Below, one piece after another: positions 3,613 through 7,079 of a stretch of DNA of 54,420 nucleotides. Below the pieces are notes generated by a model. It saw only the letters and a list, made by a program, of their open reading frames with translations, did no database searches and had not been told where the DNA came from. A program made the translations under genes and the position numbers. Position 1 is the stretch's first letter, and every line of letters starts with the position of its first letter. Source of the stretch: Candidatus Roizmanbacteria bacterium RIFCSPLOWO2_01_FULL_37_16 (GTDB lineage: Bacteria > Patescibacteriota > Microgenomatia > UBA1406 > GWC2-37-13); the NCBI GenBank assembly GCA_001789695.1, contig MGAI01000004.1, positions 1 through 54,420 on the forward strand, read 5' to 3'.

Positions 3613-3644
3613 AACCCATTAACGCGTTAACGGGTTAATGGGTT
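3613..3644. repeat. Inverted repeat at the 3' end of prfA
   Basis: An 11-bp stem, AACCCATTAAC (3613-3623) against GTTAATGGGTT (3634-3644), with a 10-nt loop. The last codons of prfA and its stop lie inside this hairpin. There is no T-run after it on the minus strand, so it is not a typical intrinsic terminator. It may stabilise the mRNA end or be a repeat relic. Confidence 0.7.
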
Positions 3645-4325
3645 GAAAACTTTGTCCCATTTTCCCTCCCCAATAATCTGTTCGAGATTGTAAAAACTTT
3701 TTTCCAAGCGATGGTCTGTCAGTCTATTTTGGGGAAAATTATAAGTGCGAATTTTTTCAGCTCTTTCTCCTGTACCAACATCTTTCACGTATGAATTTAC
3801 AATTCCTTTTCTTTTTTCTTCTTCCAGTTGATATAACTTTCCCAAAAGAATATCCATAGCAATTTTTCTGTTGGCTTCTTGATACCTTTCACGGCTAGCA
3901 GTCGCTACTATGCCTGATGGTTTATGAGTGAGTCTAACAGCTGTCGATACTTTGTTGACATTTTGTCCTCCTTTCCCTCCGCTTCGAAAAAATTGCCATT
4001 CAAGATCTGAAGGATGAATCCTTGTATCAGTTTGTATAATTTGAGGCAAAACTACGATGATGGCTGTTGAAGTATGAATTCGTCCTCTTCGCTCGGTTGT
4101 GGGGATTCTTTGAACTCTGTGAACACCAGTTTCATTTTTAAAGTAACTAAAAGCATTTTCACCTGTGATTTTAATAATATTTTCTTCAAGATAGACAAAT
4201 TTGAAGTTCATTTTTTGGGCAAATCGTATGTAAGATAACAAAAGCTCCTTCATCCAAAGCTTCGCCTCATCTCCGCCGACGCCAGGAATTGCCTCAATAA
4301 TTGCAACTTTTGGATTGATAGTCAT
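3627..4325 (-). CDS. prfA: Peptide chain release factor 1, lacking domain 1
   Basis: This factor reads UAA/UAG and triggers peptide release. Its codon-recognition tripeptide is P-T-T (in [14 protein letters not shown]), which follows the RF1 P-x-T form and not the RF2 SPF form. The catalytic GGQ is present in [10 protein letters not shown], and the C-terminal [14 protein letters not shown] is canonical. At 232 residues it is about 120 shorter than normal. Translation starts right before the conserved [11 protein letters not shown] segment, so all of domain 1 is absent. Upstream there are only 61 bp before hisS and no frame encodes domain 1. RF-H type proteins are shorter still and lack the tripeptide domain, so RF1 is the better call. 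Confidence 0.88.
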
Positions 4326-4386: not shown

Positions 4387-5649
4387 TCAATTAGAATAAT
4401 TAGAAATTAGAAATTTGATGAGTTCAGACTCTGACAACTCTTTCTGCTCACCTGTTTTCATATTTTTAAGTTTTAGGACATTTTTTTTCACCTCTTCAGG
4501 ACCGATTATGACTACAAATTGGATTCCTTTTTTATCGGCGTATTTTAATTGTTTATCCAGTTTCTCTATCGTCGGAGAAACTTCGGTCTTTATTTTGTTT
4601 TTTCGCAATTCTGAAGTTAGTTTTAGTGAATTTTTAAGCGTTATTTGATCGAAAACTGTTACCAGGGCTTGAGTTCCCCTCGTTTCTTGAGAGATAATTT
4701 TAAAATATTCCGCTGCTTCGACCATCCTATCAAAACCAAAAGCGATTCCGACCGCTGGAGTTGGGTCACCGCCCAGTTGTTCTATTAATTTATCATATCT
4801 TCCACCCCCGCCGCACGAACCGGCAGCATACCCTGGTAAAACAACCTCGAAAATCATTCCCGTGTAATAATCTAAACCCCTCGCCAGACTCGAAGAGAAG
4901 ATAATATCTCTTTTTGGAACTCCTAATAAAATTGTCGTCTTAATAATTTCAGCAAGATTTTTTGAAAGCGTTGCTTCTGTAATTGAATTTATAGCCATTT
5001 GAGCCTGACTTTCATCCAACCCTTTCTTTATTAGTTCTTCAATTACTCTTTGGTTTCCGATTTTTTCTAGTTTATCGATACTTTGAATAAGGGAAAAAAT
5101 ATTTAAATTAGAATTGGTGAACGGTTCCAGATAACGAAAAAGAGTTTGTCTGTCATTTATTAATATCTTGATTTTTGGATAGCCCACATTTTGAAAAGCA
5201 AAATAGGTTGTAGCAACAATTTCTGCATCGGCAATTGGCGAAGTGGAATTAAAAATATCTATATCACATTGGGTAAATTCTCGAAAACGACCCCTTTGAG
5301 GTTTATCGGCACGATAGACATTTTGAATCTGGTAACGTTTAAAAAATTTAGGCAATGCCGATTGATATTGAGCTAAGACGCGAGCAGTAGGAACAGTTTG
5401 ATCATATCTTAAGGCTACTTCTCTTCCTCCAGAGTCTCTGAACCTGTAAAGAAGTTTATCTGCTTCCTTACCGTATTTTCCCAAAAGAAGAGAAGCATAC
5501 TCAAGAGTTGGGGTTTCCAAAGGTTCATAGCCAAAAAGTTCAAATATCTCTTTTACTTTTTGAGCCACAAGATCACGCTTTCTTTTTTCAGTAGGTAAAA
5601 AATCACGGAAACCCTTTAATGTTTGTGGTTTTAAAATATTTTTTATCAT
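4387..5649 (-). CDS. hisS: Histidyl-tRNA synthetase
   Basis: This class II synthetase charges tRNA-His. The 420 residues include motif 1 (FELFGYEPLETPTLEYA), motif 2 (RYQIQNVYRADKPQRGRFREFTQCDID), the HisRS-specific LARGLDYYTG and motif 3 region (PAVGIAFGFDRM), and a C-terminal anticodon-binding domain (about 330-420). It is preceded by a leader peptide with three histidine codons and by overlapping antiterminator and terminator hairpins (5667-5732), so its expression is very likely controlled by charged tRNA-His. A TATAAT at 5659-5664, after the terminator and 9 nt before the ATG, could give a second, unregulated leaderless start. Confidence 0.95.
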   Translation of the reverse strand: MIKNILKPQTLKGFRDFLPTEKRKRDLVAQKVKEIFELFGYEPLETPTLEYASLLLGKYGKEADKLLYRFRDSGGREVALRYDQTVPTARVLAQYQSALPKFFKRYQIQNVYRADKPQRGRFREFTQCDIDIFNSTSPIADAEIVATTYFAFQNVGYPKIKILINDRQTLFRYLEPFTNSNLNIFSLIQSIDKLEKIGNQRVIEELIKKGLDESQAQMAINSITEATLSKNLAEIIKTTILLGVPKRDIIFSSSLARGLDYYTGMIFEVVLPGYAAGSCGGGGRYDKLIEQLGGDPTPAVGIAFGFDRMVEAAEYFKIISQETRGTQALVTVFDQITLKNSLKLTSELRKNKIKTEVSPTIEKLDKQLKYADKKGIQFVVIIGPEEVKKNVLKLKNMKTGEQKELSESELIKFLISNYSN

Positions 5650-5666
5650 ATTTTTAAAATTATACT

Positions 5667-5690
5667 AAAAAACCCTCCTTTCAGAGGGTT
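5667..5690 (-). terminator. Attenuator (intrinsic terminator) in the hisS leader
   Basis: Read on the minus strand: stem AACCCTC (5690-5684), loop TGAAAG, stem GAGGGTT (5677-5671), with a run of six T that starts inside the stem and ends at 5667. It is a normal rho-independent terminator, but it sits 18 nt upstream of the hisS start rather than behind a gene. The left arm can instead pair with 5716-5723, which would abolish the terminator. Confidence 0.88.
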
Positions 5691-5732
5691 ATTAAAATTT
5701 AATTACAAAAGTTACAACCCTCTGCTAAGAGG
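5683..5732 (-). promoter_or_regulatory. Antiterminator and pause hairpins of the hisS attenuator
   Basis: On the minus-strand RNA, segment 1 (CCTCT, 5732-5728) pairs with segment 2 (AGAGG, 5723-5719) in a 5-bp hairpin with a 4-nt loop. Segment 2, extended to AGAGGGTT (5723-5716), can instead pair perfectly over 8 bp with segment 3, AACCCTCT (5690-5683). Segment 3 is also the left arm of the terminator. The 1:2 and 3:4 pairings exclude 2:3, the classical logic of ribosome-mediated attenuation. The His codons lie immediately 5' of segment 1. Confidence 0.85.
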
Positions 5733-5774
5733 ATGATGATGACTTTCTGTATTTTTAGTCGTTTTGTATTGCAT
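5712..5774 (-). CDS. His leader peptide of hisS (20 aa, contains His-His-His)
   Basis: A short reading frame of 20 codons plus TAA lies in the hisS leader. Residues 12-14 are three consecutive CAT histidine codons (5741-5733). The peptide begins MQYKTTKNTES and ends PLSRGL. Its 3' part overlaps the RNA segments that make the pause and antiterminator hairpins. A ribosome held at the His codons would cover segment 1 and free segment 2 to form the antiterminator. A ribosome reaching the stop codon would cover segment 2 and let the terminator form. The role is comparable to HisL of enterobacteria, but this leader precedes a synthetase gene. It follows a good promoter with almost no 5' UTR. Confidence 0.85.
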   Translation of the reverse strand: MQYKTTKNTESHHHPLSRGL

Positions 5775-5785
5775 ACCTAAAACCT

Positions 5786-5814
5786 ATATTACCAAATTGT
5801 TGCTAAATACTCAA
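5786..5814 (-). promoter_or_regulatory. Promoter of the hisS leader
   Basis: On the minus strand TTGAGT (5814-5809), a 17-bp spacer and TAATAT (5791-5786). The leader peptide ATG (5774) starts 11 nt after the -10 box, so the expected transcript begins about 5 nt before the leader start codon. Confidence 0.7.
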
Positions 5815-5945: not shown

Positions 5946-7079
5946 TTATTCGTTGAAGGCTTCGAGGGTGAGCTGTTTTTCGAGAATTTCTCCATTTTGC
6001 CAGATTTTTAGATTGACTCTTTCACCAATTTTCTTTTGGAGAATTTTTTTAGCCAGGACTTGATCATCGTCTCCTTTTATCCTCTGACCGTCGAATTCGA
6101 TGATGATATCCTCTTCCTGAATTCCAGCTTTTTGGGCGGGAGAGTTATCTAAAACTTCAATAACATAGGCTCCTTCGGCAATCTCATTTAAAACCGCAGT
6201 TTCTTTGTCAATAATCTTGTAACGAACACCTATATAGGGCCGTTCGAAACTACCTCCCTGTTTATTGAAATTGTCTATTAAAGTCTTTACGATATTAACA
6301 GGAAGTGCAAAGCCAATATTTTGACTTTCTTGGGCAATAGCTACATTTACTCCCACTACCTGTCCTTTAGAATTCAAAAGAGGTCCTCCAGAATTGCCAG
6401 GATTTATAGCGGCATCGGTTTGGATGACATTATCAAGCTTCTCAACATATCCTTCAAAGGGTGATCCGGCGGTTATGCCTCTTCCTAATCCAGATATGAT
6501 GCCAACAGTAACTGTATTGGTAAATTCTCCTAGTGGTGTACCAATCGCTATAGCCATCTGACCCAATTTAAGATTGTTAGAGTTTCCTAATTTAAGAGGC
6601 TTTAGTCCGGATACGTTTATTTTTACAATTGCTAGATCATTTAGAGGATCTCGATATATTTTTACTATGTCATATTTTTTATTGTCATTGGTCAGGACCT
6701 TATAGGAAGCGTCTGTATCGGAAACAACGTGTTTATTAGTGATGATCAGTCCGTCTTGAGAGATGATAAAGCCTGATCCGATATTTTGTTCAACTTTTTG
6801 TTGTCTGCCAGGAATTCTTCTGAAAGGACTGAACGGATCAAAAGGATCAATTTCAAAAAAATCACTTGTCGATGTTGTTTTACTGATTCCAACTGTGACT
6901 ACAGATGGTAGTGATTCTTCGACGACCTTGGTAATGACTGATTCTTCATAGACGACGGTTTGTTTTTCAATTTTTGGGCTAGGGGGTGTTGCTTGTTGAA
7001 GAGTAAAAGGGAGTCGAGATTTTTGGGCTATAGCCAGAACAATTATGAGAATCGCAAGGAGAAATAAAAGTTTTTTCAT
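5946..7079 (-). CDS. HtrA/DegP-type serine protease, membrane anchored
   Basis: This is a trypsin-like S1C protease with one C-terminal PDZ domain, acting outside the cytoplasmic membrane on misfolded proteins. From the start at 7079 (377 aa): N-terminal hydrophobic anchor (residues 3-18), Ser/Pro-rich linker, catalytic triad His117 (TNKHVVS), Asp148 (DPLNDLAIV) and Ser230 (NPGNSGGPL), then PDZ (about 285-375, AGIQEEDIIIEFDGQRI). An in-frame ATG two codons upstream (7085) is also possible. The start at 7079 is preferred because an extended -10 box ends at 7088, which puts transcription start near 7080. It is followed by the hisS attenuator region. Confidence 0.92.
   Translation of the reverse strand: MKKLLFLLAILIIVLAIAQKSRLPFTLQQATPPSPKIEKQTVVYEESVITKVVEESLPSVVTVGISKTTSTSDFFEIDPFDPFSPFRRIPGRQQKVEQNIGSGFIISQDGLIITNKHVVSDTDASYKVLTNDNKKYDIVKIYRDPLNDLAIVKINVSGLKPLKLGNSNNLKLGQMAIAIGTPLGEFTNTVTVGIISGLGRGITAGSPFEGYVEKLDNVIQTDAAINPGNSGGPLLNSKGQVVGVNVAIAQESQNIGFALPVNIVKTLIDNFNKQGGSFERPYIGVRYKIIDKETAVLNEIAEGAYVIEVLDNSPAQKAGIQEEDIIIEFDGQRIKGDDDQVLAKKILQKKIGERVNLKIWQNGEILEKQLTLEAFNE

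Follow-up and report, generated by a model that had tools for sequence, protein, structure and literature searches.

Architecture of the hisS upstream region

The window, the whole 54,420-nt stretch of DNA analysed here from an ultra-small member of a candidate phylum, carries on its minus strand the gene hisS (5649-4387), identified as a histidine--tRNA ligase (histidyl-tRNA synthetase) by a match to TIGR00442 (383.7 bits, cut-off 286.75). Directly downstream (3627-4325, minus strand) lies a homologue of release factor 1 that is only 232 aa long; it matches RF1 models from position 104/112 onward, and its N-terminal domain is apparently absent. The region ahead of hisS contains a compact series of elements, all on the minus strand, whose positions agree base for base, within one base pair or nucleotide, with those given in an earlier reading of this DNA (the sequence-only reading).

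The predicted promoter consists of a -35-like hexamer, TTGAGT (5814-5809), and, after a 17-nt spacer, a -10-like hexamer, TAATAT (5791-5786). Both are present as that reading had claimed, but each has 4/6 matches and the pair falls under the 9/12 cut-off of the promoter scan, so that the promoter is weak. Transcription would start at about 5779, which puts some 5 nt of 5'UTR in front of the leader ATG (5774), as had been noted earlier. The leader ORF (MQYKTTKNTESHHHPLSRGL, 5774-5712) comprises 20 codons, ends with a stop codon at 5714-5712 and includes three consecutive His control codons, CAT CAT CAT (5741-5733). These are followed by segment 1, CCTCT (5732-5728), which pairs with AGAGG (5723-5719) to give the 1:2 pause or protector hairpin. 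Leader, control codons and hairpin lie where they had been placed.

Segment 2 (CAGAGGGTT, 5724-5716), the 5' strand of the antiterminator, adjoins the leader stop codon with its 3' end and pairs with segment 3 (AACCCTCTG, 5690-5682). This pairing had been described as an 8-bp duplex; it is indeed found, but extends over 9 bp, with an energy of -17.4 against a shuffle mean of -5.6, and none of 100 shuffles is as good. Segment 3 also takes part in the intrinsic terminator (AACCCTCTGAAAGGAGGGTT, 5690-5671 plus the T-run), where it pairs with the 3' arm, segment 4 (AAGGAGGGTT, 5680-5671), through 8 pairs (4 GC) closing a loop of 4. The T-run (5672-5667), whose first two T also form the 3' edge of the stem, is separated from hisS by 17 nt rather than the 18 nt originally counted. 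The fold of 5640-5785 reaches -33.8 kcal/mol (z -3.7), a value equalled by none of 200 shuffles. Between the terminator and the gene, 9 nt before the hisS ATG, lies a TATAAT box (5664-5659) that matches the -10 consensus at 6/6 positions and has no recognisable -35.

The elements, their order and their exclusive pairings, all read directly in the DNA, correspond to the attenuator class. Consecutive codons cognate to the downstream synthetase lie in a short ORF, and a terminator is positioned between this ORF and the structural gene. The antiterminator excludes the terminator, and its 5' strand is located 3' of the control codons, at the stop codon. From this arrangement and from the comparison with relatives described below, the element is very probably a ribosome-mediated (leader-peptide) transcription attenuator of hisS.

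Cognate leaders ahead of hisS and thrS

The hisS gene was located in 57 near relatives, in named public genomes and in 347/373 genomes of the class; the best-matching named genomes were Candidatus Roizmanbacteria and other Microgenomates. The comparison set was built from the DNA in front of 184 distinct hisS genes, mostly from Microgenomates/CPR with a minority from other phyla. An intrinsic terminator was found within 300 nt in 60 of these 184 regions, and in 25 of the 60 it is preceded immediately by a short frame that opens with ATG and contains adjacent His codons. In these 60 regions HH stands out as the over-represented doublet (25 cases), followed by LL and SS with 9 each. Of the hisS genes sampled, only about 14% thus possess the full device. 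Several further loci (L031, L128, L209 and L185) show this layout with HRH or just one His codon; the first of them, L031, is a near relative whose leader is of the one-codon type.

The pairing is retained together with the codons. When the predicted antiterminator duplex of each leader is compared with shuffles of its own segment, 19/25 fall in the best 5%, with a median rank of 1 of 100. In the five sequences nearest to the window in layout, the 2:3 helix is paired in 100% of cells and two pairs are changed on both sides, whereas slid controls show no pairs changed on both sides. The comparison with related genomes had been set beforehand as the test that could refute the sequence-only reading; it revealed His-rich frames in the same position and a 2:3 pairing kept through compensatory changes, and supports the interpretation as ribosome-mediated attenuation. 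Segment 2 begins 4-21 nt beyond the His codons, usually 8-15, and in most relatives is found at or close to the stop codon, a spacing that would allow a stalled ribosome to leave segment 2 free and a terminating ribosome to cover it.

The distribution is patchy. The element is absent from three same-genus genomes that were examined (L002, L020 and L024), and because several genomes of the genus are without it, the attenuator appears to be gained and lost readily. The automatic test found no His leader in 70 hisS genes of other Patescibacteria classes. In one locus from another class (L447, positions 1-140), an HH short frame (MKIQTKKLNNIHHYNSLPFGKGSF) with a terminator was observed, but it lies far upstream, ahead of a small ORF that separates it from hisS, and was left out of the count. 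In four relatives (L019, L150, L189 and L205), a tRNA-His gene sits between the His-leader terminator and hisS, an arrangement in which the tRNA would be co-regulated with the synthetase. The hisS gene of another locus (L078) has a long 5'UTR and a strong terminator with no His leader and no Rfam match, and could carry a different regulatory RNA.

A second version of the device was found ahead of thrS. In the window's own genome (contig C35, locus L311), a Thr leader (MKLEKLLNCTTNAFS) followed by a terminator (TCCCTCCGAAAGGAGGGA) precedes thrS. Among 79 thrS upstream regions, the enriched doublet is TT, detected by the automatic test in 16 regions, one of them (L428) probably false, while HH occurs once. 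The combination of Thr leader, antiterminator and terminator is present in the own genome and in about 15 relatives (L309, L310, L374, L390, L401, L409, L410, L411, L412, L416, L421, L427, L435 and L437), with leaders such as MMSPRNITTTTTT, MKNVSLVLTTTTTR and MKLNFVTTTTNLS. The codon type of the leader follows the downstream gene, His for hisS and Thr for thrS. A Phe leader (FF), sought as a parallel to E. coli pheST, precedes none of 30 pheS genes, and no convincing cognate leader was found at the other synthetase loci examined (Ile/Leu/Val/Met, Pro/Ser/Trp/Tyr and similar).

These data bear on a rival explanation, in which the terminator is an ordinary one, belonging to an upstream or antisense transcript, with a short ORF beside it by chance, and hisS is driven solely from the TATAAT box at 5664-5659. 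Short ORFs are cheap, and the perfect box 9 nt 5' of hisS is of a kind common at hisS genes lacking an attenuator (96/159). However, a His-doublet leader with a terminator was observed in 25/184 regions, whereas each of ten dinucleotide-shuffled sets yielded 0-1, the codons switch to Thr at thrS, and in most relatives a strand in or beside the leader frame pairs with a terminator arm. The upstream htrA-like gene, moreover, has its end at 5946, and the stretch of about 170 nt from there to the leader ATG contains a separate promoter-like pair. We consider this explanation quite improbable.

Outside the His run, the 25 leaders are unrelated (HHHTLL, SHHSPDPDGG, LHHHCQNRE, VHHHLPNGG, AHHTHS, IHHAYWNHSFGGV, NHHHHA and others). 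The leader product might instead act through nascent-chain arrest or as a trans-acting peptide, as has been suggested for S. meliloti peTrpL, and leader peptides with second functions do exist (PMC7298713). The lack of conservation of the peptide beyond the His/Thr run argues for codon sensing, and we regard a role of this type as very improbable.

Direct sensing of tRNA or histidine by a T-box or another RNA, with the short ORF being incidental, would agree with the common control of Gram-positive synthetase genes by T-boxes (PMC2965389). In the window region, a search for T-boxes gave no match even with E raised to 10; 17 hisS loci (E up to 1) and 20 thrS loci (gathering threshold) gave none either, and the leader, at about 100 nt, is too short for a T-box. 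What is conserved is the codons and the two-hairpin logic. We consider direct sensing extremely improbable. More generally, no known Rfam RNA matches in the window at the gathering threshold, nor in the hisS and thrS loci searched. A T-box-like string (GGGACCGCG) near one hisS gene (L203) has no Rfam match and was dropped.

Probable near-leaderless leaders and a possible proximal promoter

A -10-like box usually ends 5-9 nt ahead of the ATG in the 25 His leaders. At a distance of 4-9 nt, a box with at least 5/6 matches is present for 18 of the 25, compared with 6 of 96 for the other ATGs of these sequences. Given this position of the box, the leader is probably translated from a leaderless or near-leaderless transcript. 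The window lies at the edge of the pattern, the gap from TAATAT to the ATG being 11 nt, longer than in most relatives. Across the class, a TTGAC-TATAAT-ATG pattern with the ATG 5-9 nt past the -10 box was detected in 54/59 genomes, far above the backward control, which suggests that many mRNAs in Microgenomates are leaderless.

L001, L022, L070 and L082 likewise have a TATAAT box between terminator and gene, 8-9 nt ahead of the hisS ATG. The proximal box of the window may represent a second, leaderless hisS promoter that bypasses the attenuator and provides basal or unregulated transcription.

Proposed mechanism and comparison with known systems

According to the proposed mechanism, RNA polymerase would start about 5 nt 5' of the leader ATG, and a ribosome would load at or near the 5' end and follow the polymerase. 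When His-tRNA(His) is scarce, the ribosome would stall on the three CAT codons, covering segment 1 and leaving segment 2 free to pair with segment 3. The resulting antiterminator would block the terminator, and hisS would be transcribed. When charged tRNA is plentiful, the ribosome would run on to the stop codon, which directly follows segment 2, and mask this segment, allowing the 3:4 terminator to form and transcription to end before hisS. Attenuation would then yield a short RNA, about 110 nt in length, whose 3' end lies in the terminator. The 1:2 hairpin would account for the basal state and for polymerase pausing. We infer the stall, as well as the direction and size of the response, from the arrangement of these parts.

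No HisG was detected in the assembly that contains the window (92.6% complete), in line with the earlier suggestion that the organism probably cannot make histidine; HisG is absent from 49/54 genomes of the set, own genome included, being present in only 5. This absence supports histidine auxotrophy, and the organism is most likely an auxotroph that imports histidine. Control of the synthetase would consequently respond to tRNA charging and not to biosynthesis.

Because the same device recurs across the class with unrelated sequences, these reduced bacteria apparently still sense a shortage of charged tRNA by stalled-ribosome attenuation. It seems reasonably likely, if clearly less certain than the assignment at the hisS locus, that near-leaderless leader-peptide attenuation operates class-wide in auxotrophic, genome-reduced Microgenomates, matching the levels of HisRS and ThrRS, and in some lineages of tRNA-His along with HisRS, to tRNA charging, and that the attenuators arise repeatedly with new sequences rather than as one conserved RNA by descent. 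If true, the retention of codon-stall sensors at both genes would imply that the use of imported amino acids is regulated via tRNA charging rather than biosynthetic control in a group, the Patescibacteria/CPR, that is largely uncultured. The analysis further points to leader peptides starting at the transcript end in Microgenomates. In the literature searched, no report joins Patescibacteria/CPR with ribosome-mediated (leader-peptide) attenuation.

A close parallel in design is the enterobacterial hisL attenuator (Rfam His_leader), which controls the his biosynthetic operon and contains 7 His codons. Both systems combine consecutive His codons, a pause hairpin, an antiterminator and an intrinsic terminator in the same order, with mutually exclusive pairings. 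By contrast, the target here is hisS instead of the biosynthetic operon, the leaders have 2-5 His codons, the start is near-leaderless and the phylum is different. The window has no match to Rfam His_leader at the gathering threshold nor up to E=10. E. coli pheST, with its pheM/PheL leader, is the classical case of a synthetase gene under leader-peptide attenuation by cognate codons, and in this respect resembles the present element. A match to Rfam Phe_leader that covers the hisS element is sub-threshold (19.1 bits, cut-off 55). The system described here differs from pheST in using His and Thr rather than Phe codons and in its leaderless-type start, and no pheS version was found in 30 relatives.

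For Bacillus, a His leader peptide was predicted in 2010 in front of both hisS* and hisZ (Naville & Gautheret 2010, PMC2965389). The Bacillus hisS* case is alike in placing a His-codon leader and a terminator ahead of a hisS paralogue. There, the leader serves paralogues while hisS itself is under a T-box, whereas here it precedes hisS, the phylum is another one, and leaders of unrelated sequence recur throughout a class. Leader ORFs with control codons that are located at, or close to, the 5' end of the transcript have precedents in the leaderless leader peptide of S. meliloti trpL (PMC7298713) and in the mycobacterial poly-Cys sORFs, described as leaderless leader peptides (Canestrari et al. 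2020, as cited in PMC13236596). The targets of these are Trp or Cys metabolism genes and not synthetases, and they belong to other phyla. The sequence-only reading had proposed a new use of the mechanism; the proposal holds only in part, since pheST and the predicted Bacillus leader already place it on synthetase genes. The mechanism is classical, and what is new, as far as checked, is the phylum and lineage, the breadth of occurrence, the hisS/thrS target pair and the near-leaderless design.
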